43,259 nucleotides of DNA from positions 1 to 43,259 of the forward strand of contig JAUXNU010000028.1 in the NCBI GenBank assembly GCA_030682655.1, written 5' to 3'. Each line of letters starts with the position of its first letter. Position 1 is the stretch's first letter. The notes below the pieces were generated by a model. That model searched no databases. It was not told where the DNA came from and saw nothing but the letters and a program-made list of their open reading frames with translations. The DNA comes from Actinomycetota bacterium (GTDB taxonomy: Bacteria > Actinomycetota > Coriobacteriia > Anaerosomatales > JAUXNU01). Both the position numbers and the translations under genes were made by a program. Shown here piece by piece: positions 21,239-42,036 of the stretch.

Positions 21239-21264
21239 GTGCATTGACAGGGGGTCACACGTCC

Positions 21265-22599
21265 ATGACGCGCATGTTCGGAACGGACGGGGTGCGTGGT
21301 GTCGCAAATGCGGACTTGACGCCGGAGCTGGTGTTCCGGCTCGGTGAAGCCGCAGGACACTTCCTTGGCGAGAAAGGGCGCGGCAAGATCGTCGTCGGCA
21401 GGGATACCCGCCGAAGCGGCGACATGCTCGAGGCGGCGCTGGTGGCCGGAATCTGCTCGGGAGGGGCTGACGCGCTGGTGTGCGGGATCGTTCCGACTCC
21501 GGCGGTGGCTCTGATGACGCGCACGCTGGAGGCGGACGGGGGCGTTGTGATCAGCGCGTCTCACAACCCCGCGGAGCACAACGGGATCAAGCTCTTCTCG
21601 CGAGAGGGTTTCAAGCTTCCCGACGAGCTTGAGGACGAGATCGAGAGCTTCGTGCTGGCAGAGCGCCTGTGGGAGCGGCCCATCGGCGGTTCCGTTGGCC
21701 GTGTGCGCGCAATCGAAGATGCGGTTCGGCGCTACATCGCGCATGCCGTCGAGACGGTCGACAGCGACCTCGAAGGACTCACGATAGCGGTGGACTGTGG
21801 TCACGGCGCCGCCGCCGTCGCGACCGTTCCAGCACTCAAGGAGTTGGGGGCGAGGGTTATCGCGACCAACTGCGACTGGGACGGAACCGACATCAACAAA
21901 GGATGCGGCTCGACGCACCTCGGTCCGCTGCAGGAGCTCGTTGCGAGCCACGAGGTCGACCTGGGAATCGCCCACGACGGCGACGCCGACCGCGTGCTCG
22001 CTGTCGACGAGACCGGCAGGGAAGCCGACGGCGACGTGATCATGGCGATCTGTGCGGCTCACATGAAGGACGAAGGCACGCTCGCGAACGACACTGTGGT
22101 CAGCACGGTGATGTGCAACCTCGGCTTCGAAGTGGCCATGCGTGAGCGCGGAATCAACGTCATCAAGACGAAGGTGGGCGACCGCTACGTGCTCGAGCAG
22201 ATGCAGACTTCCGGCGCGGTCCTTGGCGGGGAGCAGTCCGGGCACATCATCTTCATGGAGCACAACACCACAGGCGACGGCTTGGTGACCGCTCTGCAGC
22301 TTGCGTCCATCATGCGCGAGCAGGCTCTTCCGCTTTCCGAGCTGCGCGGGGTCATGCGTCGCTTCCCCCAGGTGCTGGTGAACGTTCCGGTGAGGGACAA
22401 GAACCTGCTTGCGACCAGTGGGGCCGTCTCCAAGGCGGTGCACGACGCCGAGAGCGAGCTGGGCTTGGCGGGGCGCGTGCTCGTGCGCGCATCGGGGACC
22501 GAACCGCTCGTGCGTGTGATGGCGGAAGCCGAGGACGAGGCGACCGCCGAAGCGGTGGTTCAGCGCATTGTCGATGTGGTGCAGGCGGAGCTGACCTAG
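21265..22599 (+). CDS. glmM: Phosphoglucosamine mutase
   Basis: GlmM converts glucosamine-6-phosphate to glucosamine-1-phosphate on the route to UDP-GlcNAc. The 444-residue product has the expected FGTDGVRG start, the active-site ISASHNP with phosphoserine S99, the metal-binding DGDADR motif and the C-terminal RASGTEPLVRVM phosphate loop. The ATG at 21265 has a G-rich site (CAGGGGG) about 10 nt upstream; an alternative TTG at 21244 would add seven atypical residues. It lies directly before the glmS unit, linking consecutive enzymes. Confidence 0.96.
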   Translation: MTRMFGTDGVRGVANADLTPELVFRLGEAAGHFLGEKGRGKIVVGRDTRRSGDMLEAALVAGICSGGADALVCGIVPTPAVALMTRTLEADGGVVISASHNPAEHNGIKLFSREGFKLPDELEDEIESFVLAERLWERPIGGSVGRVRAIEDAVRRYIAHAVETVDSDLEGLTIAVDCGHGAAAVATVPALKELGARVIATNCDWDGTDINKGCGSTHLGPLQELVASHEVDLGIAHDGDADRVLAVDETGREADGDVIMAICAAHMKDEGTLANDTVVSTVMCNLGFEVAMRERGINVIKTKVGDRYVLEQMQTSGAVLGGEQSGHIIFMEHNTTGDGLVTALQLASIMREQALPLSELRGVMRRFPQVLVNVPVRDKNLLATSGAVSKAVHDAESELGLAGRVLVRASGTEPLVRVMAEAEDEATAEAVVQRIVDVVQAELT

Positions 22600-22660: not shown

Positions 22661-22669
22661 TGGTATAAT
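22661..22669 (+). promoter_or_regulatory. Extended -10 promoter of the glmS leader
   Basis: TGGTATAAT contains a perfect TATAAT (22664-22669) preceded by a TG dinucleotide one base upstream, the extended -10 form. No good -35 box is seen 16-18 nt upstream. A start near 22676 would give a leader of about 330 nt containing the whole ribozyme. Confidence 0.6.
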
Positions 22670-22737
22670 CTGCGCCAACAGGCGAGCGCACTGGCCGACG
22701 GCGGAAGGAGATGCCCGGGGAGCTGGCTGCTTCACAA

Positions 22738-22880
22738 AGCGCCAGGACTGGCGGTGCGCGCGTCAGTCGACGAGGAGAGAGTCTATCGAACGGTTCGGCG
22801 GATGGCTCTCCGGCTCGACCGGAGTCGTGACGGTACCGACAAAACCCGCGGGCGACTGCGGAGACAAAGCGGTATCGGAC
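22738..22880 (+). ncRNA. glmS self-cleaving ribozyme-riboswitch
   Basis: This leader matches the conserved glmS ribozyme core. Cleavage is expected between A22738 and G22739, at AGCGCC. P1 is ACTGGCG (22747-22753) with CGTCAGT (22761-22767). Then come core CGACGAGG (22768-22775), P2 arms GGAGAG (22774-22779) and CTCTCC (22806-22811), conserved TATCGAA and TCGGCGG, P3 GGCTC/GAGTC, P4 GGTACCG (22832-22838) with CGGTATC (22870-22876), and a small CCGC/GCGG stem, between which ACAAAACC and GGGCGACT are retained. In known members glucosamine-6-phosphate acts as a cofactor for cleavage and the mRNA is then degraded. It lies upstream of glmS, as expected. Confidence 0.95.
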
Positions 22881-23008
22881 CGGTATCCCCCTTCATGCGG
22901 GGCCTCATGTGCCCCACGCACGGCGGTCGTTTTTGCCGTACGACATCGAACAGCTTGTGCCCGGCGCGCGTCTCGCGCGTCTGATGACTGAAAGGTATCG
23001 GACAGACA

Positions 23009-24835
<1,827 letters not shown>

Positions 24836-29105: not shown

Positions 29106-29162
29106 GGACGTCTGCTTTCTCAAACGGGGCCATAACAGAATGACCCGAGGGGGGTGTCGCGA

Positions 29163-31136
29163 GTGCTCGTTCCCATGGCAAAGGTAGAGATTATCGGCCC
29201 GAAGAACCTGTTCTTCGACGTCGTTAGTCTTGTACACGAGCAAGGCAAGCTTCATATCGAGGATCTCTCGCGGAAGATCCAGTCCGGCGAGTTGCCGCTG
29301 GATCGGATGGAGGTTTTCGAGAAGCAGCAGGGGGACAAGGAGCGCATGGATGACATGCTCATCCGCGTACGTGCGATCCTCAAGGCGCTTCACCGCGACG
29401 ATTTCAAGGTAGACACAGCTGCCAAGCGAGCCGAGTACGATCGCCTCTACGACCTCGACGCCGATGAGCTCGCCGTTGAGATATCCGGAGTCATCGGAGA
29501 GGTCGAAGACCGCACGGCGGCCCTGGCAACGAGTCACACCGCCATCGAGTCCGAGCTCTCGTTGCTCGCCCGGTACGAGCCGATTCTTCACAAGATCCAG
29601 CCTCTGGCCAAGCAGATCGTGACCACCGGCAACTACGAATCGGTGGCCCTCCTCGTTGAGCGCCGCTACAAGGCCGCTCTCGAGCAGCTCAAGGAGGAGC
29701 TCGACAAGCTCACCAAGAAGCAGTGCGAGATCGTGTCCACCGATGTCGATGAGGACACCACGGCGGCCATCGTCGTTTTCAACAAGAACTACTCCGAGCC
29801 GGTGCACAAGTTCCTGGCTATGGAGAATGTCAACCAGATCCGCCTCCCCAATGAGTTTGACGGCATGCCCTTCGACATGGCGTATGACACGCTGAAGGAA
29901 CGCCGCAAGGAGTTGCCGACGGACCTGGGAGAGATTTCGACAGAGCTTGAGCTGATGTCCAACAAGTGGCAGCTGAAGCTAACCACGATTCGCGACGTGC
30001 TGATCGACAAGGTCGAGCAGATCAGTGCCATTCCGATGTTCGGTCGCACTGAGTATGCGTTCGTCGTTACGGGCTGGATGCCCGTTGCAGAAGTCGGCGC
30101 ATTGCGGAGGATGGTCACCGAGAAATGGCGCGACGACGTGATCATCGAGCAGACCGCGATCCGCGAAGAGGAGTACGCGGAGACGCCGGTCGCGCTCAAG
30201 AATGCGAAGGCTCTCGAGCCCTTCCAGTTCCTCCTGGGCGTATACGGCATGCCTCGCTACGGCACGATCGATCCGACGTGGATGCTGTTCGTCTTCTACC
30301 CCCTGTTCTTCGGCATGATCGTCGGAGACCTGGGCTACGGTCTGGTCATGCTTGGCATCGTCGTGTGGTTGCGCATGAAGTTCCGTGACAATCCGAGCAT
30401 CCAGCTGGCCACGTCGATTCTCGGACCGGCCGCCACCATGGTGCTCGCGTTCGGCATCCTATACGCGGAGTTCTTCGGTGATCTGCTCGGTCACTATCTG
30501 GGCTGGGTGGAGAACATCAAGGTTGCGGGGATCGCTTTGCCGTTCCACAGGACGGTGCTCGTCAAGGAGTTCATGTACATCGCCGTCGCGGTTGGTGTCG
30601 TGCATGTGCTCTTCGGCCTGGTGCTTGGCGTTGTCAATGCCGTGAAGATGAAGCACAAGAAGCACCTGTACGAGAAGGGCGGCATCCTCACACTCATCCT
30701 GGCCATACTCATTGCGGTCGGCCTGGGCATGTCCGCAGGTGTGCTCGGCGAATTGGCGACATGGGGTCAGCTCATATTCGCGGCTATCGCATTCGGCGGC
30801 TTCATCTTCGCGATACGTGGCGGCGGCGTCATGGGTGCTATTGAGACACTCGAGGCATTCACAGGCATGGCGAGCTACATACGTATCATGGCGGTCGGCC
30901 TGGCCGGCGCGATCTTCGCGGACGCGATCAACAAGATCGTCGCGAGCACCGGCAATATCGCCCTTGCTGCGATCATCGCCATCCTGCTTCACGGGCTGAA
31001 CTTCATCATCTGCGCGTTCAGCCCCGCCATTCATGCTTTGCGTCTCAACTTCCTGGAGTTCTTTGGGAAGTTCTACGAGACTGGCAAGCAGCAGTACAAG
31101 CCATTCACGAAAACCGGAGGTGAAAAGAGCGCATGA
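29163..31136 (+). CDS. ntpI: V/A-type ATPase subunit I
   Basis: Subunit I is the membrane stator that forms the ion half-channels with the K ring. The product has a cytoplasmic half (residues 1 to about 370) with long helices and a C-terminal half with seven or eight hydrophobic membrane segments, including the conserved FYPLFFGMIVGDLGYGL and TGMASYIRIMAVGLAG. Of the candidate starts 29154, 29163 and 29175, the GTG at 29163 is best spaced from GAGGGGGG (29147-29153) and gives 657 residues. Its stop overlaps ntpK by 4 nt. Confidence 0.92.
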   Translation: MLVPMAKVEIIGPKNLFFDVVSLVHEQGKLHIEDLSRKIQSGELPLDRMEVFEKQQGDKERMDDMLIRVRAILKALHRDDFKVDTAAKRAEYDRLYDLDADELAVEISGVIGEVEDRTAALATSHTAIESELSLLARYEPILHKIQPLAKQIVTTGNYESVALLVERRYKAALEQLKEELDKLTKKQCEIVSTDVDEDTTAAIVVFNKNYSEPVHKFLAMENVNQIRLPNEFDGMPFDMAYDTLKERRKELPTDLGEISTELELMSNKWQLKLTTIRDVLIDKVEQISAIPMFGRTEYAFVVTGWMPVAEVGALRRMVTEKWRDDVIIEQTAIREEEYAETPVALKNAKALEPFQFLLGVYGMPRYGTIDPTWMLFVFYPLFFGMIVGDLGYGLVMLGIVVWLRMKFRDNPSIQLATSILGPAATMVLAFGILYAEFFGDLLGHYLGWVENIKVAGIALPFHRTVLVKEFMYIAVAVGVVHVLFGLVLGVVNAVKMKHKKHLYEKGGILTLILAILIAVGLGMSAGVLGELATWGQLIFAAIAFGGFIFAIRGGGVMGAIETLEAFTGMASYIRIMAVGLAGAIFADAINKIVASTGNIALAAIIAILLHGLNFIICAFSPAIHALRLNFLEFFGKFYETGKQQYKPFTKTGGEKSA

Positions 31137-31459
31137 TCAAGAATCGGCTCGCAAGGTGGGTGTTTGGCAGCACATTCGTGCTGACCATGCTGATCCCCGC
31201 AATCGCTCTGGCAGAGGAAGCTGCCGCAGCGGCGCCCGCGGATTGGCAGACGAACGTCGGCAGGGCTCTTGCCGCAGGTCTGGCTATGGGTCTGTCCGCT
31301 CTGGGTGCAGGCTATGCGCAGGCCAAGATCGGCTCCGCTGGCGCAGGAACACTCGCTGAGCGCCCTGAGGTTGCAATCTGGATCATCACGCTCCAGGCGC
31401 TTCCGGAGATTATCGTTCTGCTCGGTTTCGTTTCCGCGATCATGATTAGCGGCGGCTAG
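31133..31459 (+). CDS. ntpK: V/A-type ATPase rotor ring subunit K (c-subunit)
   Basis: The rotor-ring proteolipid. The 108-residue product has a hydrophobic leader with Ala-rich, Glu-containing end (residues 1-35, resembling a cleavable signal, similar to that described for Thermus), then one helical hairpin: helix 1 about 43-68 (GLAMGLSALGAGYAQAKIG) and helix 2 about 80-106 with the ion-binding glutamate E92 in LQALPEIIVL. It is thus a single-hairpin ring subunit. E92 is followed by Ile rather than Thr or Ser, which hints at proton rather than sodium coupling, but this is inference only. Confidence 0.92.
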   Translation: MIKNRLARWVFGSTFVLTMLIPAIALAEEAAAAAPADWQTNVGRALAAGLAMGLSALGAGYAQAKIGSAGAGTLAERPEVAIWIITLQALPEIIVLLGFVSAIMISGG

Positions 31460-31506
31460 CAGATTACGCCGCACTCGAATCGCGAACCGCGGAAGGAACC
31501 GTACAC

Positions 31507-32085
31507 ATGGCACTTGAAGATATCTTCAGAGCGCTTGAGGTGCAGGCTGATCAGGAGTGCGACCAGATAGTGGGGAGCGCCCGGGACCAGGCTGACGCCA
31601 TCATTAGCGAGGCGGGCGATCAGGCGGAAGCGATACGCGAAGGCCGGATCGAAGATGCCGAGCGTGTCACGCGCCAGAAGGCGATGCAGTCGGTCAATGC
31701 CGCTAAGCTCGAGAGCAAGAAGCGCGTGGCGGCCGTCAAGCAGCAGGCCGTGGCAGACGCCTTCAAGGCGGCGCTGGAAGAGCTGGGCAAGGTCCGTTCT
31801 TCGAGCAACTACGCGGCGATTCTTCGCGCGCTCGTCGAGGAGGCGGCCGCCGGTGTCGAAGGAGAGCTCGATGCGCTCGTCGATCCGGCAGACGCCGGGA
31901 TTGCCGCTTCGACGTTCGCCGATCTGGGCATCAATGCCGAGATCAAGTCCGAGATCACGTCCTCGGGTGGCGTCATCATTCGCATGGCGGAAGGCCGGAT
32001 CATGCGCCGCAATACCCTCGAGGATCGGCTCGAGAAGGTTGAGCCATCCATACAGTCCGATGTCGCGGAGATTCTGTTCTCATGA
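31507..32085 (+). CDS. ntpE: V/A-type ATPase subunit E
   Basis: Peripheral stalk subunit that joins subunit G/F. The 192-residue product has a long charged helical N-terminal half (about residues 1-100) and a small globular C-terminal domain ending in VEPSIQSDVAEILF, as in the family. The stop overlaps the ATG of ntpC by 4 nt. Length is typical. Confidence 0.88.
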   Translation: MALEDIFRALEVQADQECDQIVGSARDQADAIISEAGDQAEAIREGRIEDAERVTRQKAMQSVNAAKLESKKRVAAVKQQAVADAFKAALEELGKVRSSSNYAAILRALVEEAAAGVEGELDALVDPADAGIAASTFADLGINAEIKSEITSSGGVIIRMAEGRIMRRNTLEDRLEKVEPSIQSDVAEILFS

Positions 32086-33176
32086 GTTCTGGCGCATCCA
32101 CAACCCGCAAAGCGTCCCCTGGCGGCAAGGACTACGGGTACTCGAACGCCCGCATTCGCGGAATGAAGTCGCGGCTGCTTGATCGAGTATTCCTGGACAG
32201 CCTGATTGCGGCTCCAGAGATCGGCAACCTGATTCAGGACCTGTCCGACACGGAGTACGGACCAGATCTTGAAGAGGCCCTCATCCGCGGGCGGGACGCG
32301 GCTGCGGTCGACGAGGCGCTCAAGAACAACATGGTGCGTACGTTCCGGAAAGTCTTCGGCTTCCTGAATGAGGAGGCAGCGTACATTCTGGCAACGCTGC
32401 TTGGCAGGTGGGACGTCTTCAACATCAAGACGATCCTGCGTGGCAAGCACATGCAGTTGAGCACCGCGGAGATCAACGAGGGGCTGCTGCCTGCCGGCTA
32501 CCTGACGCAGATCGATCTTGAGGCGCTATCGTCGATGGGGGACATCCGCGGAGTCGTCGACACGGCGGCTACGTGGGGACTGCCTTTTGCGAGTGCCATG
32601 CGTGAGGGGTATGCGGAGTACATGCGCAGCGGTGAGCTTGCCGATCTCGAGTTGGCGATGGACCGCTATTTCACCGGCTGGGCGGCCGCTCGGCTCGTTC
32701 GTCGCAGCAACAACGTCCAGATGGCGAAGCGCCTACTGGGCATCCAGGTAGATATCCTGAACCTCGTGATGGTGTTCCGTCTGCAGAAGGCGGACATGGA
32801 GTCCGTCAACGTCGAGACGTTCTTCCTCGAGGGCGGGCGGGACGTGGGCAAGGAGCTCTATCGGGAGCTGGGTCATATGTCCGACATCGACGAAGTGCTC
32901 GACCGGTTGCGCGGCACGCCGTACGGCAAGACACTGGACGACGTGTCGCTTCACTATTTGGAGACGAACACCATTGCGGTGTTCGAGCGTGCGCTCGAAG
33001 ACTACCTCGTGCGCAAGGCGCTGACATACGGAACAGGGGATCCGCTAGGGATCGGGGTCGTAATCGCCTACTTGTGGGCGAAGCAGAACGAGATCACGAA
33101 CCTGCGGATCATCGTGAAGGGCAAGTCGGTTGGCATGCCCGTGGACCGTGTGAGGGGAGAGCTGATCCTTGTATAA
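32082..33176 (+). CDS. ntpC: V/A-type ATPase subunit C (d-like)
   Basis: Central subunit linking the rotor ring to the DF shaft. The 364-residue product has the family pattern YSNARIRGMKSRLLD near residues 23-37 and the later EITNLRIIVKGKSVGMP C-terminal segment. It is some 20-30 residues longer than many homologues because of a Ser/Lys-rich N-terminal extension of about 20 residues. Overlaps ntpE by 4 nt and ntpG by 8 nt. Confidence 0.9.
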   Translation: MSSGASTTRKASPGGKDYGYSNARIRGMKSRLLDRVFLDSLIAAPEIGNLIQDLSDTEYGPDLEEALIRGRDAAAVDEALKNNMVRTFRKVFGFLNEEAAYILATLLGRWDVFNIKTILRGKHMQLSTAEINEGLLPAGYLTQIDLEALSSMGDIRGVVDTAATWGLPFASAMREGYAEYMRSGELADLELAMDRYFTGWAAARLVRRSNNVQMAKRLLGIQVDILNLVMVFRLQKADMESVNVETFFLEGGRDVGKELYRELGHMSDIDEVLDRLRGTPYGKTLDDVSLHYLETNTIAVFERALEDYLVRKALTYGTGDPLGIGVVIAYLWAKQNEITNLRIIVKGKSVGMPVDRVRGELILV

Positions 33177-33501
33177 GCTCGTAGTCCTCACAGACTCGGA
33201 CACCGCCGATGGATTCCGCCTGGCAGGGGTGGATGTTGAAGTCGCCGACTCAAGTGATCTTGCGCGCAAGAAGCTCAGCGCGCTTATCGACGATGAGTCG
33301 AGCGGCATCATCGCCGTGAACGAGCGCATGATGGCTGTGATAGACGAACGCACACAGCGAAAGATCGATTCTATCTATCGACCCATCGTCATCTCGCTCC
33401 CGATCCGGGAGAAGCTCGAGGTCGGCGAGGATCACCGGGCGTACCTGTCGCGCCTGATCAGGAGAGCGATAGGCTTTGACATCACTCTGAGGCGAGGCTG
33501 A
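33169..33501 (+). CDS. ntpG: V/A-type ATPase subunit F (NtpG/AtpF)
   Basis: Regulatory rotor-shaft subunit that binds subunit D. The 110-residue product starts with TTG as [23 protein letters not shown], typical of the family, and has the [13 protein letters not shown] segment. A GAGGGGA site lies upstream inside ntpC. Called G in Enterococcus and F in other systems. It begins within the end of ntpC and is 4 nt from ntpA. Confidence 0.88.
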
Positions 33502-33505
33502 TCTG

Positions 33506-35254
33506 ATGATTGTCGGGACCATTGCAAGAATCACAGGACCGGTCGTCACCGCTGGCGGTATGACCGGCGCGAAGATGTACGACGTCGTGCGCGTCGGCCA
33601 GGACGGCCTCATGGGTGAGGTCATTCGCCTGGAGGGCGACCGCGCGACGATTCAGGTGTACGAAGACACCTCGGGCTTGATGGTAGGTGCCCTGGTCGAG
33701 TCGACCGACGCTCCGCTGATGGTGGAGCTGGGTCCGGGGCTGCTGTCGTCCATCTACGATGGCGTGCAGCGTCCGCTGCCTGTCATCGCGGAGTCAGGCG
33801 ACTTCATCGAGCGCGGTACCGTTGCGTCCGCGCTCGATCGCACGAAGAAGTGGCACTTCACGCCTACCGTTACTGCGGGCACGGACGTGGGACCAGGCGA
33901 GATCCTGGGTACGGTGCCCGAGGGGCAAACGGTCATCCATAGCGTGATGGTGCCGCCGAAGATATCCGGGATCATCGCCTCCATCAAGTCGGAGGGCGAC
34001 TACAACGTCGACGAGGTCATAGCGACCCTCGCTGACGGCACGGAGCTCAAGATGTCGCAGTGGTGGCCTGTTCGCCAAGGCCGCCCGTATGCGCGCAAGC
34101 TCGATCCGGGGACGCCGTTCCTGACTGGGATGCGGATCCTTGACACGTTCTTCCCGATTGCCCAGGGTGGCAACGCCATCATCCCTGGCGGTTTCGGAAC
34201 GGGCAAGACGGTCACTCAGCAGTCCTTGGCCAAGTGGGCGGACGTGGACATCATCGTCTACGTCGGCTGCGGCGAGCGCGGCAACGAGATGACGGAGGTT
34301 CTCACCGAGTTCCCCGAACTCGAGGACCCCAAGACGGGCGCTCCGCTCATGGATCGCACCGTGCTCGTCGCCAACACGTCGAACATGCCGGTTGCCGCGC
34401 GCGAGGCGTCTATCTACGTCGGCGCCACTCTCGCTGAGTACTACCGGGACATGGGTTACAGCGTCGCGATGATGGCGGATTCAACCTCTCGCTGGGGCGA
34501 GGCCCTTCGCGAGGTGTCGGGGCGACTCGAAGAGATGCCTGGAGAGGAAGGCTACCCGGCCTACCTTGCTACGCGACTTGCGGCCTTCTACGAGCGTTCG
34601 GGCCGCGTGCAGGCGCTCGGTTCCGACGAGCGAGTCGGATCCGTCACCATGGTCGGCGCAGTCTCACCGGCCGGCGGTGACATGTCCGAACCGATGACGC
34701 AGAACTCACTCCGGGTTACCGGTGCGTTCTGGGCGCTCGACACGTCGCTTGCGCACAGGCGTCACTTCCCGGCCATTTCCTGGACGAAGTCCTACACGCT
34801 CTATACCGCGCAGATTCGGCCCTGGTTCGAGGCCAACGTTGCCGAGGACTGGCAGCCGATCCGCGAACGCGCGATGTTCATCCTCCAGAAGGAGACGGAG
34901 CTTCAGGAAATCGTGCAGCTCGTTGGTCCGGACGCACTGCCGGAATCAGAGAAGATCATTCTGGAAGTCGCGCGCATGCTGCGCGAGGACTTCCTGCAGC
35001 AGTTCGCGTTCGACGAGGTCGACGCCTACTGCCCGCCCAAGAAGCAGTTCATGATGCTCAAGACGATCATGGCGTTCCACGATGCAGCGAACGCCGCACT
35101 CAACCGCGGCGTCTCCCTGCGCCAGATCCTCGAGCTGCCGATCAAGGACGAGATAGCGGGCATCAAGACCACGCCGCACGAAGAGGCATTGGAGATGATG
35201 TCTACCTTTGCCAGCAAGCTCGCCGAAGACATCGCAGGGATCGAGGTGTACTAA
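33506..35254 (+). CDS. ntpA: V/A-type ATPase catalytic subunit A
   Basis: Nucleotide-hydrolysing or -synthesising subunit of the A3B3 head. The 582-residue product has the P-loop GGFGTGKT at residues 228-235, a characteristic non-homologous insert before it (about 110-190), and the conserved [12 protein letters not shown] and [14 protein letters not shown] blocks. ATG start 4 nt after ntpG. Its stop directly abuts the GTG of ntpB. Also named atpA. Confidence 0.97.
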
Positions 35255-36685
35255 GTGGCACAGGAAACCGTGACATCCCCGGAGGAGAAGATATCTCTCG
35301 TCTCCACCGACTACCGCACGATCAGTTACGTGACAGGTCCGCTCATCTTCGTGAACAACGTGCACGGGGTTGCGTACAACGAGATGGTCGCAATCCGCAT
35401 GCCCGACAGTTCGCGCCGTAGCGGCCAGGTCCTTGAGATATCGGGTGACATCGCTGTTATCCAGGTGTTCGAGGGCACACAGGGTATCGACGTGGACGCG
35501 ACCGAGGTGCGGTTCCTGGAGGAGGTCGCGCGAATCGCGGTCTCATCGGACCTCCTTGGCCGTGTTCTGAACGGTGTCGGCAAGCCGATCGACGGCGGCG
35601 CCCCGATCATCCCCGAGGCGCGTTTGGACATCACCGGCTCGCCGATCAATCCGTACTCCCGTGAGAAGCCGGCTGACTTCATCGAGACCGGTATCTCCGC
35701 AATCGACGGACTGAACACGCTGGTGCGCGGGCAGAAGCTTCCGATCTTCTCGGGCTCCGGTCTTCCGGCCAACGAGCTTGCCGCGCAGATCATCCGGCAG
35801 GCACGCGTCAAGTCCGGCGAGGAGTTCGCCATCGTGTTCGGCGCGATGGGCATCACCCACCGCGAAGCATCCTTCTTCATGGAGCAGTTCGAGTCCACGG
35901 GTGCGCTTGAGCGCGTCGTGTTCTTCCTGAACCTGGCCGACGACCCCACGGTCGAGCGGTTGCTTACGCCCAAGTGCGCGTTGACGGTTGCCGAGTACCT
36001 GGCGTTCGAGAAGGATCTGCAGGTTCTCGTCGTTCTGTCGGACATGACGAACTACTGTGAGGCGTTGCGCGAGGTCTCCACGGCTCGCGAAGAGGTTCCG
36101 GGTCGCCGGGGCTATCCCGGCTACATGTACACGGATCTCTCGACCATCTACGAGCGCGCGGGCCGCATCAAGGGCCGTAAGGGCTCGGTCACGCAGCTGC
36201 CGATTCTCTCGATGCCGGACGACGACATCACGCACCCGATCCCGGACCTCACCGGCTACATCACCGAGGGACAGATCGTGCTCTCGCGCCATCTGCACCG
36301 CCGTGGTGTGTTCCCGCCGATCGATACCCTGCCGTGCTTGTCGCGGCTCATGAACCTGGGTATCGGCGAAGGCAAGACACGCGAAGACCACCGCGCCGTC
36401 GCGAACCAGCTCTACGCCGCCTACGCTCAAGGACGCGACCTGCGCAAGCTCGTCGCGATCGTCGGCGAGGAAGCACTGTCCGAGACGGACCGCCGCTACC
36501 TGCGCTTTGCAGATGATTTCGAGTCTCGCATCGTGGGACAGGGCAACGAGGGTCGCTCGATCGAGGAGACGCTGGCAATCAGCTGGGAGCTCATGGCGGG
36601 TCTGCCGATGGGCGAACTGAAGCGAGTCAGAGACTTCATTCCCAAATACCACCCGAACGCCGCTGATCAATCCGGGGACATCTAG
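35255..36685 (+). CDS. ntpB: V/A-type ATPase non-catalytic subunit B
   Basis: The non-catalytic partner of subunit A. The 476-residue product lacks a functional Walker A motif, having [15 protein letters not shown] in its place, as expected for subunit [15 protein letters not shown] and [21 protein letters not shown] are conserved family blocks. GTG start directly follows the stop of ntpA. 8 nt before ntpD. Confidence 0.96.
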
Positions 36686-36693
36686 GGGGTCTC

Positions 36694-37344
36694 ATGGAGG
36701 AAGTCCGGCCAACACGGTCAGAGCTACTCGAACGCAGATCGCAGATTCAGCTTGCGCAGCAGGGCATGGACCTGCTCAAGCAGAAGCGCGATGCGCTTCT
36801 CATCGAGTTCATGGGAGTCATGGACGAGACGCTGCGTCTGTCTGAGTCGCTCCAGAAGTCGGTGTCCGAGGCGCAGTACTCGCTTGCGGTTGCCAAGGCC
36901 GTCGATGGCACGGTCGCGCTGCGATCTGCGGGCATGGCCACGAAGGGCGAGATCGTCGTGGACATGACCGGTACGAAGATCATGGGCGTGTCGGTCCCGG
37001 TGGTCACGAAGGGTGAGAGCCCGATCAAGTCATCGTTCACCCGAGGCTACTCGGTCACCGGTGTGTCTTCACGAGTTGACGAGACTGCCGACAAGTTCGA
37101 GCGCATTCTGGATGTCATCATCGAGTACGCGGATATCGAGACGAGACTTAAGCGACTGGGCGAAGAGATCCAGAAGACGAACCGTCGCGTGAACGCGCTC
37201 GAACAGGTCACCGTCCCGCAGCTGAGAGAGCAGGTGGCCTACATCCGACAGACGCTCGACGAACGCGCACGAGAGGATCTGTTCAGGCTCAAGAAGGTCA
37301 AAGCGAAGATCGAGCGCAAGAAGGCCGAACGACAGGCCATCTAG
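36694..37344 (+). CDS. ntpD: V/A-type ATPase subunit D
   Basis: Central rotor shaft that inserts into the A3B3 head. The 216-residue product starts with RPTRSELLERRSQIQLAQQG, followed by long N- and C-terminal helices that would form the coiled coil (about 1-75 and 140-205), and ends in a basic KKVKAKIERKKAERQ tail. Last gene of the operon. A structured RNA region and terminator-like hairpin follow. Confidence 0.94.
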   Translation: MEEVRPTRSELLERRSQIQLAQQGMDLLKQKRDALLIEFMGVMDETLRLSESLQKSVSEAQYSLAVAKAVDGTVALRSAGMATKGEIVVDMTGTKIMGVSVPVVTKGESPIKSSFTRGYSVTGVSSRVDETADKFERILDVIIEYADIETRLKRLGEEIQKTNRRVNALEQVTVPQLREQVAYIRQTLDERAREDLFRLKKVKAKIERKKAERQAI

Positions 37345-38061: not shown

Positions 38062-38577
38062 ATGGAGTTCAGCGAGGTAGTCGCCAGGCGCCGAAGTGTG
38101 CGCCACTTCAATGCAAAGCAGGCCGTTTCGGAGTCTGACGTGCGTGCGCTGCTGCTTGCCGCAACGAGCGCTCCGAGTGCCGGGAACATCCAGCCTTGGA
38201 GATTCACCGTCGTACGTAGTCTTGAGGCGCGCGAACGTCTTGCGGGCGCGCTGCACCAGCGATGGGCGACTTCGGCGCCGGTGGTGATAGTCGTCTCCGT
38301 CGATCCTCGGCCATGTTCCGCCCGCTATGGTTCGAGGGGGGAGATGCTCTACGCCATCCAGGACACAGCCGCCGCGGCGAATCACATACTGCTCGCGGCG
38401 GTGGAGCGGGGGCTCGCCTCGTGTTGGATCGGCGCGTTCGATGAGAAGGCGGTCCGCGAGGCTATCGGGGTCGGGGAACCCATCACGCCGGTAGCCGTTC
38501 TGCCGATCGGCTACTCTGCTGAGTCCGCAGGCAAGCCTGCGCGCCGCCCGCTCGAGGAAGTAACCACGTGGCTCTGA
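38062..38577 (+). CDS. Nitroreductase-family protein
   Basis: A likely FMN-dependent oxidoreductase of the nitroreductase fold. The 171-residue product has the N-terminal RRSVRHF motif (residues 10-16), [13 protein letters not shown] (about 36-48), and the C-terminal [11 protein letters not shown] and PVAVLPIGY segments that shape the flavin site in the family. It is at the short end of the family's size. The substrate is unknown. ATG has a GAAAGG site upstream, and the gene overlaps the start of the glycosylase fusion by 10 nt. Confidence 0.87.
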
Positions 38578-39683
38578 GCTTCGACAGCCTCGACGATCTC
38601 CGCACCCACATCGGAGATTGCCACAGGTGTCCGCTCGGCGATACGCGCACCACGCTTGTGTTCGGCGTGGGCGATCCCCGTGCGGACGTGTTGTTCATCG
38701 GCGAAGCGCCCGGGCGAAGCGAGGACCTGAGGGGCGAGCCGTTCGTCGGCGCCGCAGGGCAGCTGCTCGACGAGCTGCTCTCTTCGGCAGGTATGAGGCG
38801 TCAGGAGGTCTACATCGCCAACATCCTCAAGTGTCGTCCTCCGGGCAACAGGGACCCTCTGGCCGAGGAGATCGACACGTGCACTCCGTTTCTGCGCGAG
38901 CAGGTCAGGCTGATCCACCCTCGCGTCATCGTGACGCTGGGCAACTACGCGACGAGATTCGTGCTCAAGATGGATACCGGCATAACGCGACTGAGGGGCA
39001 CCGTCCAGAAGGCCGGCGCGTTTCCGGTGATGCCGATATTCCATCCTGCGGCGGCGCTGTACGATCGTACGAAGCGCGACGTTCTGTTCGAGGACTTCCG
39101 GCAGCTGCGCGCCTTGCTCGACACCCCCGCTCCCTCCGAGCCCGTCCAAGGCTCGCTCTTCGAAGGGTACTCGATGGCAGTTCTGCGCATGCGAACGACA
39201 GCGGCTGCGGCGACCATTGCCGCTGGCCGTTCGCTGGCTGCGATCCTTCGTGCTGGAGATGTGCTGCTGCTCGCCGGCGATCTCGGCGCCGGGAAGACAG
39301 CGCTTGCGAAGGGCGTTGCCCAGGGCCTCGACGTTGAAGAACCGGTGACGAGCCCGACCTTCAACATCCTGCTCGTGCATCGCGGGCGTCTGACGCTCAA
39401 CCACTTCGATCTCTACCGTCTGGAGACCGCCGGCCAGCTCGAGGACATCGACTACTGGGGGACGCTAGAGTCCGGCGGGGTCTCGATCGTCGAATGGGGA
39501 GACCGGTTCTCCGAGGCCGCTCCCGTCGACTGCCTCACGGCGACTATTTCGATCGAGGGCGATGACGAACGCAGAATCGAACTGGCACCCACCGGGCCCC
39601 GCTCCTCCGAGCTTGCCCAGGCGTGGATCGCGGCCTGTCGTGCGCTGCCCGGCGTGCTCGCCGAGGACGGGGAATCTGCATGA
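38568..39683 (+). CDS. Family-4 uracil-DNA glycosylase fused to TsaE
   Basis: Two domains are joined in one 371-residue frame. Residues 1-185 match a 4Fe-4S uracil-DNA glycosylase: cluster Cys C18, C21, C89 and C105, GEAPGRSED at 45-53 and IFHPAA at 157-162. Residues about 203-371 match TsaE, the ATPase of the t6A complex: Walker A GDLGAGKT at 237-244, SPTF at 262-265 and HFDLYRL at 279-285. M203 (ATG at 39174) is preceded 6 nt earlier by GAAGGG, so a free TsaE of about 169 residues might also be made. The stop overlaps tsaB by 4 nt. The fusion is in frame and shows no sign of a lost stop. Confidence 0.9.
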
Positions 39684-40468
39684 GCGCCTTCGTCCTTGCG
39701 ATGGATACCGCCACCGAGGAGGTTGCGCTCGCTCTCGGGGAGCGAACCGGGGACCGCGTGGAGCTCGTCGCAGACCGCGACTTCGAGGCCCCGCGAGCGG
39801 CGCTTGGGCGGCTGCTCCCGGCCGCCCAGGAGCTGCTTGTCAGGGCTGGCCTCACGCCTTCCGACATAGCGGAGGTGGTGGTCGGTCGCGGGCCGGGGTC
39901 GTTCACCGGTGTGCGGATCGGTGTCTCCTCGGCCAAGGGGTTCGCCCACGGGCTCGGGGCACCGCTCTTTGGCGTGGGAACCCTCGACGCGATAGCCTGG
40001 CGGTTCGCGGAGACAGACGGGCTCCTTGGCGTGGTGGGGGATGCGATGCGAGGCGAGGTCTACCCGGCGCTGTTTCGCGTGGCATCGGGGCAGGTGAGGC
40101 GGCTTTCGGATGATACGGTCATGAGTCCGGTGGCAGCGGCACAGATGTGGGCGGAATCGGTCGACGAGCCGCTCGTGCTGGTCGGCAACGGCTTGCGCAA
40201 GTACGAGGACGTGTTCTGCGCGACCCTCGGCTCGAGAGCCGTGGTCGCCGGTCGCCCGATGTGGACTCCCGCAGGCGTTGGACTGCTTGCGGCCTATGCT
40301 GATGCGCGACTACGCGGAGTCCTTGGCGACGGGCAGCCTGGAGCCGTGCTGCCCGTGTACACGCGGCTTTCAGATGCCGAGGAGAACGAGTTGCGGGCAC
40401 TCGGGAACGCGCCTGAGATGACTCCCGACTCCGGTGTCGCCGGGCCGCGAGGAGTGAACGGGCTGTGA
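39680..40468 (+). CDS. tsaB: tRNA t6A modification subunit TsaB
   Basis: TsaB is the non-catalytic partner of TsaD in t6A37 synthesis. The 262-residue product has the family start [19 protein letters not shown] and the central VGRGPGSFTGVRIGVSSAKGFA motif. The ATG overlaps the stop of the upstream fusion gene by 4 nt and its own stop overlaps the GTG of the RimI-TsaD gene by 4 nt. A longer reading from 39623 is not needed. Confidence 0.95.
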   Translation: MSAFVLAMDTATEEVALALGERTGDRVELVADRDFEAPRAALGRLLPAAQELLVRAGLTPSDIAEVVVGRGPGSFTGVRIGVSSAKGFAHGLGAPLFGVGTLDAIAWRFAETDGLLGVVGDAMRGEVYPALFRVASGQVRRLSDDTVMSPVAAAQMWAESVDEPLVLVGNGLRKYEDVFCATLGSRAVVAGRPMWTPAGVGLLAAYADARLRGVLGDGQPGAVLPVYTRLSDAEENELRALGNAPEMTPDSGVAGPRGVNGL

Positions 40469-42036
40469 GCGCGCTTATCAGAGAGATGCGAGCCGCCGAC
40501 CTCGATGCTGTCCTCGCGATAGAAGCACAGGCGTTCTCGACGCCCTGGCAGCGTGGGATGTTCGAAGACGAACTCGAGCAAGTGGAGTCGAGAGCTTGGC
40601 TGGTTCTCGAGTGGCAGGGGTTCGTCCTTGGCTATGGCGGGATCATGCTCGTCGAGGACGATGCGCACATCATGAATCTGGCGATGCGGACGGACAGCCG
40701 GGGGTGCGGGCTGGGGATGGCTCTGCTCGTGCGGCTTGTGCGGCGCGCCCGTGAGATGGGCGCGCGCTACCTGACTCTGGAAGTGCGCGAGCGCAATGGC
40801 CGCGCACGGACGCTGTACGAGCAGGCAGGAATGCGCAGCGTTGGCGTGCGGCATGGCTACTACGCGGACAGCGGCGAGCACGCCGTGATCATGTGGAGCG
40901 ACGACATGTCCTCGCCTGGCGAGGCGGCGCGACTTGAGGAGCTGGAGCTGCGCGGAGAAGAGTCGCTCGCACGATTCGTCGGCCCGGCAGAGTGCGCCGG
41001 GCGCGGTGAGGAGCTGGTCCTCGCCATCGAGACGTCTTGCGATGAGACTGCGGCAGCAGTGATGCGAGGCGGCAACGACCTCCTGGCCAGCGTGATCGCA
41101 AGTCAGGTGGACTTCCACGCCCGGTTTGGCGGGGTGGTGCCCGAGATCGCTAGCCGCAAACACACCGAGGCGATCGTTGCCGTCGTTGACGAGGCGTTGG
41201 AGCAGGCGGGCGTGGGACTGCGGGACCTCGACGCGGTGGCGGTCACGTACGGTCCCGGGCTCATCGGGGCGCTCGTGGTCGGCGTCGCGTATGCGAAGGG
41301 GTTGGCACTGGCGACCGGCTTGCCTCTTGTCGGCGTGAACCACCTCGAGGGACACATCTTCGCGAACATGCTCGACGACCCGACCGTGGCGCCTCCGCTT
41401 GTGGCCCTCGTGGTCTCGGGCGGGCACACGTCACTGGTGCACGTGCCCGAGTGGGGCGTCTACCACACCCTCGGCGAGACGCTCGACGACGCGGCCGGTG
41501 AGGCGTTCGACAAGGTGGCCAAGGTCCTTGGCCTGGGCTATCCGGGCGGTCCGGTGATCTCGAAGCTGGCCGCGCAAGGTGACCCGGCCGCCATCGCCTT
41601 CCCGCGGGCGATGCTGCACTCGGGCGACTACGCCTTCTCGCTCTCGGGGCTCAAGACCGCCGTGATCAATCACATCCGCCACGAGCGGGAGGCCGGTCGC
41701 GAGATCGATGTGGCTGACCTCGCCGCGTCGTTTCAGGCGGCAGTGATCGACGTGCAGGTTGCCAAGGCGGTCCGCGCAGCCGAGGAATGCGGGGTCACGC
41801 AGTTCTGTCTGGCTGGCGGGGTTGCCGCGAATGTCGCACTGCGAGATGCCCTGCGTGACGCCCTGCTGGCCAAGGGCGTGCGCCTCTCTGTGCCTCCCTT
41901 CGCGCTGTGCACAGACAATGCCGCGATGATTGCTGCGGCGGGGACCTATCGCCTGCGGCGAGGCGAGCGCTTGCAGCTCGACGCGGAAGCCCTCGCGAGC
42001 TTGCGCCTCGACGCATCAGCGGGTTCAGACGCCTAA
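40465..42036 (+). CDS. rimI-tsaD: RimI acetyltransferase fused to TsaD
   Basis: A 523-residue fusion. Residues 1-150 form a GNAT domain like RimI (S18 N-acetyltransferase), with the CoA-binding RGCGLG; residues 183-523 are TsaD, the threonylcarbamoyl transferase, with IETSCDE at 188-194 and the metal-binding HLEGH at 293-297. Later blocks include VVSGGHTSL and GGVAANVALRD. A Glu/Arg-rich linker of about 30 residues joins them. GTG start overlaps tsaB by 4 nt. Such fusions are known in some Actinobacteria, notably Coriobacteriia. Confidence 0.94.
   Translation: MSALIREMRAADLDAVLAIEAQAFSTPWQRGMFEDELEQVESRAWLVLEWQGFVLGYGGIMLVEDDAHIMNLAMRTDSRGCGLGMALLVRLVRRAREMGARYLTLEVRERNGRARTLYEQAGMRSVGVRHGYYADSGEHAVIMWSDDMSSPGEAARLEELELRGEESLARFVGPAECAGRGEELVLAIETSCDETAAAVMRGGNDLLASVIASQVDFHARFGGVVPEIASRKHTEAIVAVVDEALEQAGVGLRDLDAVAVTYGPGLIGALVVGVAYAKGLALATGLPLVGVNHLEGHIFANMLDDPTVAPPLVALVVSGGHTSLVHVPEWGVYHTLGETLDDAAGEAFDKVAKVLGLGYPGGPVISKLAAQGDPAAIAFPRAMLHSGDYAFSLSGLKTAVINHIRHEREAGREIDVADLAASFQAAVIDVQVAKAVRAAEECGVTQFCLAGGVAANVALRDALRDALLAKGVRLSVPPFALCTDNAAMIAAAGTYRLRRGERLQLDAEALASLRLDASAGSDA

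Follow-up and report, generated by a model that had tools for sequence, protein, structure and literature searches.

Is the glmS gene of an actinobacterial genome controlled by a self-cleaving RNA in its leader, and if so, is that RNA an ordinary member of its class or an oddity of its host? The glmS ribozyme class has been described as a Gram-positive trait (PMC9495366), with members identified in no more than a few groups of bacteria (PMC2258182). We addressed this question for a single contig of a metagenome-derived assembly, JAUXNU010000028.1, the whole 43,259-nucleotide stretch of which is referred to below as the window. An earlier note, based on the letters of the window, had placed a glmS ribozyme with stems P1 to P4 in the glmS leader and had suggested a search with the Rfam covariance model.

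Scanning the whole window against all Rfam families with cmscan returned a match to the glmS model RF00234 on the + strand (102.3 bits, E-value 5.6e-23) that extends over the full model (positions 1-167 of 167) and lies far above the gathering score of 37 bits. The suggested search thus gives a high-scoring match that covers P1 to P4, and no other RNA family exceeds its curated threshold in the window. A search of the window for the simple core pattern AGCGCC..GACGAGG..CGGCGG[AG]T gave one occurrence and none on the opposite strand, and no second glmS ribozyme copy was found in the 2.94 Mb genome. The element lies in the 5' leader of glmS on the same strand, with the ATG 121 nt downstream, and the locus is organized as follows.

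21244..22599, + strand: glmM, phosphoglucosamine mutase, the upstream gene (TIGR01455, 560 bits)
22661..22669, + strand: extended -10 element TGGTATAAT of the TGnTAnnnT type, probable promoter of the ribozyme-glmS transcript
22703..22715, + strand: purine-rich motif GGAAGGAGATGCC, resembling a Shine-Dalgarno sequence and lying about 33 nt upstream of the cleavage site
22727..22887, + strand: glmS ribozyme, whole span of the Rfam model (RF00234)
22888..23008, + strand: spacer from the ribozyme to glmS, containing weak conserved hairpins
22899-22903 with 22911-22915 (GGGGC/GCCCC) and 22920-22924 with 22935-22939 (ACGGC/GCCGU), + strand: spacer hairpins of a weak consensus fold
22990-22995, + strand: glmS ribosome-binding site GAAAGG
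23009..24835, + strand: glmS, glutamine--fructose-6-phosphate transaminase, 608 aa (TIGR01135, 844 bits)

The genome encodes exactly one full glmS, and this is the ribozyme-bearing copy. In all 54 loci that were read, the ribozyme is followed by a GlmS N-terminus, at a distance of 45-202 nt in 53 of them and of about 100 nt in L013. Ribozymes of family f18 were considered as candidates for control of genes other than glmS; this was rejected, as their downstream reading frames encode GlmS proteins starting with MCGVVGY. Elsewhere in the window, we noted a gene cluster for a V/A-type ATP synthase (29154-37344) and two open frames that each combine domains, namely uracil-DNA glycosylase with TsaE (38568-39683; Pfam PF03167, PF02367) and a RimI-like GNAT acetyltransferase domain with TsaD (40465-42036; Pfam PF00583, PF00814).

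To describe the anatomy of the element, the window ribozyme was aligned using MAFFT with 43 relatives, 24 from the same order and the others from other Actinomycetota (n = 44), and base pairs were counted against a structure written with its pseudoknots. The roles of the ribozyme parts are taken from published structures (PMC11602151, PMC7125110), while their mapping onto the coordinates of the window was made in this analysis.

22738..22739, + strand: A(-1)|G1, predicted position of self-cleavage (both residues invariant in 44 of 44)
22740-22743 with 22797-22800, + strand: P2.2 pseudoknot, CGCC with GGCG (100% paired, invariant)
22746-22753 with 22761-22768, + strand: P1 stem (6 of 8 pairs changed on both sides; 94.5% of cells paired)
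22771-22773 with 22786-22788, + strand: P2.1 pseudoknot, CGA with UCG (100% paired, invariant)
22775, + strand: candidate catalytic G (invariant in 44 of 44)
22777-22781 with 22806-22810, + strand: P2 stem, GAGAG with CUCUC (4 of 5 pairs covary; 75.9% paired)
22811-22816 with 22822-22827, + strand: P3 stem (78.8% paired)
22818-22821 with 22881-22884, + strand: P3.1 pseudoknot, L3 ACCG with tail CGGU (4 of 4 pairs changed on both sides; 85.8% paired)
22831-22838 with 22870-22877, + strand: P4 stem (covariation; 92-97% paired, together with P4.1)
22841-22843 and 22866-22868, + strand: IL4 internal loop, AAA and AAA (conserved residues)
22846-22851 with 22856-22861, + strand: P4.1 stem (covariation)
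22852-22855, + strand: GNRA loop GCGA (conserved residues)

The sequence and structural features by which a member of RF00234 is recognized are all present: the scissile A(-1)-G1 followed by CGCC that pairs in P2.2, the P2.1 pseudoknot and the active-site G within GACGAGG, and P3.1, the A-rich IL4, the GCGA loop and the receptor G22766 in P1. Altogether, 90.4% of the cells are paired, compared with 74% in column shuffles and with 32-45% after a shift of the 3' partners by one to three columns, and 294 cells have both sides changed versus 90 in the shuffles. Compensatory changes are numerous in P1, P4 and P4.1, where 92-97% of the cells are paired, while the lower values for P2 and P3 (76-79%) are mainly attributed to register slips of MAFFT between the order and other lineages. 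Invariance in all 44 sequences also extends to the receptor G in P1, the first A triplet of IL4 and, within the GNRA loop, its G and A; the second IL4 triplet is conserved at 89-95%. The GNRA loop presumably docks onto P1.

These data bear out the four stems that the earlier note had proposed and uphold its cleavage site, AGCGCC at 22738-22743 with a predicted cut between A22738 and G22739. Its interval of 22738-22880 is too short, as the 5' flank and also the 3' strand of P3.1 (22881-22884) lie outside it, and it left the pseudoknots P2.1, P2.2 and P3.1, all of which are present, unnamed. The stems are GC-rich, as it had remarked, but this merely reflects genome composition (64% GC in the ribozyme and 63% in the window). 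We are highly confident that the element is best explained as a functional glmS ribozyme of canonical type, situated in the 5' leader of glmS; its class is well known, and the switch is an ordinary one.

The proposed mode of action follows that of the B. subtilis glmS ribozyme (summarized in PMC9495366 and PMC2258182). Transcription would start just downstream of the extended -10 element at 22661-22669, and the RNA would fold into a preformed double pseudoknot of P2, P2.1 and P2.2, the fold being braced by P3/P3.1 and, probably, by docking of the GNRA loop of P4.1; the helices themselves are indicated by sequence and covariation. When abundant, glucosamine-6-phosphate would enter the active site as a cofactor and the RNA would cut itself between A22738 and G22739, as expected from the family. 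The downstream glmS mRNA with its 5'-OH end would then be degraded, probably by RNase J, and GlmS synthesis would drop. RNase J is thought to degrade the cleaved glmS mRNA in B. subtilis (PMC9495366), and the genome encodes this enzyme (590.6 bits against a cut-off of 400). The model predicts that the synthesis of amino sugars, which are cell-wall precursors, would be shut down when the product suffices.

The host of this element is actinobacterial, as the earlier note had surmised. In the RpoB tree, the genome groups with its order-mates next to the Collinsella/Enorma and Slackia/Adlercreutzia groups, which places the host in the class Coriobacteriia, most likely in Anaerosomatales or a related order, and outside the Collinsella/Slackia group. 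The same note had considered the lineage an unusual one for this ribozyme, a view that does not survive the survey of related genomes. A ribozyme match was identified in 55 of the 298 sampled genomes of Coriobacteriia and in roughly two thirds of the listed members of the host's own order. Across the sampled Actinomycetota, 75 of 396 genomes have a match, with many families outside Coriobacteriia, including metagenome-assembled genomes from Acidimicrobiia (L049, L057, L079) and Thermoleophilia (L106). One genus of the order gave no match in any of its sampled genomes (G003, G005 and G007, one of them a single contig), suggesting that the element is dispensable. In addition, a short partial match to the glmS core (26 bits, model positions 49-88) was observed at G124:C24:13262-13300, in a class member whose family groups with Slackia and Adlercreutzia, and is possibly a remnant.

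In the GlmS tree, a single clade unites the order's ribozyme-bearing GlmS proteins; its neighbour is the ribozyme-free GlmS of the Collinsella/Slackia/Adlercreutzia group, and the presence or absence of the ribozyme switches just five times. Together with the distribution, this tree is most simply explained by a feature inherited within the order, with no recent import from Firmicutes. The phylogeny is thus compatible with vertical inheritance, and the element appears to be neither isolated nor a horizontally acquired oddity.

We also examined the leader around the ribozyme. Nearly all 30 loci of the order contain a counterpart of the extended -10 element, located 49-84 nt before the cleavage site, which suggests that the ribozyme is probably transcribed from a promoter of its own. 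A consensus promoter scan detected no site in the leader, and a -35 hexamer is absent from it, so the transcription start given above is a guess. The purine-rich motif, in the form RRAGGRG-GCC, is present in 29 of the 30 order loci (the window and L002-L030), compared with about 10-12 expected from shuffles; it is not enriched in other Actinomycetota and is therefore order-specific. Neither a convincing pairing partner nor a reading frame was found for it in the order loci. Pairing with the 3' strand of P2 (CUCUCC) was rejected, as the core of the same locus was no better than the cores of others (permutation p 0.54), and pairing of the leader with any segment of the ribozyme or the spacer gave a best p of 0.004 in about 37 tests, which is not significant after correction. 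A leader peptide starting after the motif was also discarded, since inspection found no conserved start codon.

Further upstream, 11 of the 30 order loci (L006, L008, L009, L010, L012, L019, L022, L025, L026, L027 and L030) contain a direct repeat, GT[ACG]A[CT]-N6-GT[ACG]A[CT], versus 0.03 expected, an enrichment that is somewhat flattered because the pattern was composed after viewing the sequences. The repeat has a period of 11 bp (e.g. GTAACC-N5-GTCAC) and is located 21-23 bp before the -10 element in 10 of the 11 loci. Activators of the OmpR family such as MtrA need two short direct repeats (PMC5650626), and the repeat in these relatives is likely a site for an OmpR-family (MtrA-like) regulator. 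No such repeat is present in the leader of the window itself. Conceivably, the ribozyme of the order works as a single module within a more extensive leader, in which the purine-rich element and, in many relatives, the OmpR-type repeat would add a second layer of glmS control, responsive to the cell envelope or mediated by the leader RNA, atop the glucosamine-6-phosphate feedback; we consider this unlikely. Between the ribozyme and glmS, the consensus fold is weak, with 8 of 10 pairs compensated and -5.3 kcal/mol, and barely exceeds shuffled sequences (mean z -0.9), so strong spacer structure was rejected in favour of a marginal one.

These leader elements bear on a different interpretation, in which the leader would act mainly as a conventional riboswitch or a multi-layer device, controlling attenuation or translation through its hairpin-rich spacer or the purine-rich motif, with cleavage secondary. 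The nearly universal, order-specific purine-rich motif and the weak conserved hairpins would fit it, but the leader contains no terminator-like site on the + strand, including the segment between the ribozyme and glmS, the spacer structure is hardly distinguishable from shuffles, and the upstream motif has no pair-specific complementarity to the 3' strand of P2. We regard this interpretation as quite improbable. The chance that the element is a decayed or inactive relic, with the response to glucosamine-6-phosphate lost, is smaller again. It can be lost, since some order-mates are entirely without a ribozyme; in a relic, however, core changes are expected to accumulate, as in L168 of a distant family, whereas the scissile dinucleotide, the candidate catalytic G, P2.1 and P2.2 are intact and invariant here, and covariation persists in the peripheral pseudoknot P3.1.

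Contamination was considered as well, given that the assembly consists of 221 contigs with an estimated contamination of 4.6%, and a Firmicutes contig with a ribozyme and glmS could have entered an actinobacterial bin. Against this, the GlmS protein nests among those of the order, with 82% identity to its nearest relative, the GC content of the ribozyme equals that of the contig, and the same arrangement is found in most genomes of the order, making such an origin extremely improbable.

For the window, the result allows the regulation of amino-sugar synthesis to be predicted with confidence, and it opens no new mechanism. In a deep, largely uncultured order of Coriobacteriia, feedback by glucosamine-6-phosphate through the glmS ribozyme is predicted to be a regular trait that is passed on vertically, and the ribozyme also occurs in several further lineages of Actinomycetota. 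The only mildly new point is the breadth of its spread in this phylum.

Divergent variants were also observed within Actinomycetota. In L171-L177, which belong to family f26 except for L177 of family f51, the loop that separates P2.1 and P2.2 in the core contains one further hairpin. Family f47 comprises divergent AT-rich glmS ribozymes (50-62 bits) from four small genomes (1.0-1.4 Mb), with two extra hairpins between the 5' strand of P2 and the 3' strand of P2.1 (L186:4129-7702 and L187:3537-7114, also L167-L170). In the two f47 loci read at length, the order is glmM-ribozyme-glnA-glmS, with acpS next in L186, and the gene after the ribozyme encodes a type I glutamine synthetase (TIGR00653); glutamine-synthetase-like reading frames also lie downstream in the other two loci. 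With this arrangement, glucosamine-6-phosphate would jointly control glutamine supply and GlmS. L168, an f47 member with core changes, may be inactive.

Compared with the window ribozyme, those of other Actinomycetota represent the same element before glmS (82.8-101.6 bits in L049, L057, L079 and L106), but the sequences of P1, P3 and P3.1 differ and the leader is without the order-specific purine-rich motif. With the RF00234 ribozymes of B. subtilis, B. anthracis and Thermoanaerobacter tengcongensis, the window element shares the gene context, the cleavage dinucleotide and the double-pseudoknot core, as well as P3.1, the GNRA-capped P4.1 and the IL4 purines (structure in PMC11602151 and PMC7125110). 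It differs from them in its GC-rich stems, which are in line with a 63% GC genome, in its Coriobacteriia host, in the 121-nt spacer to glmS and in the order-specific purine-rich motif upstream, and these differences leave its class unchanged.
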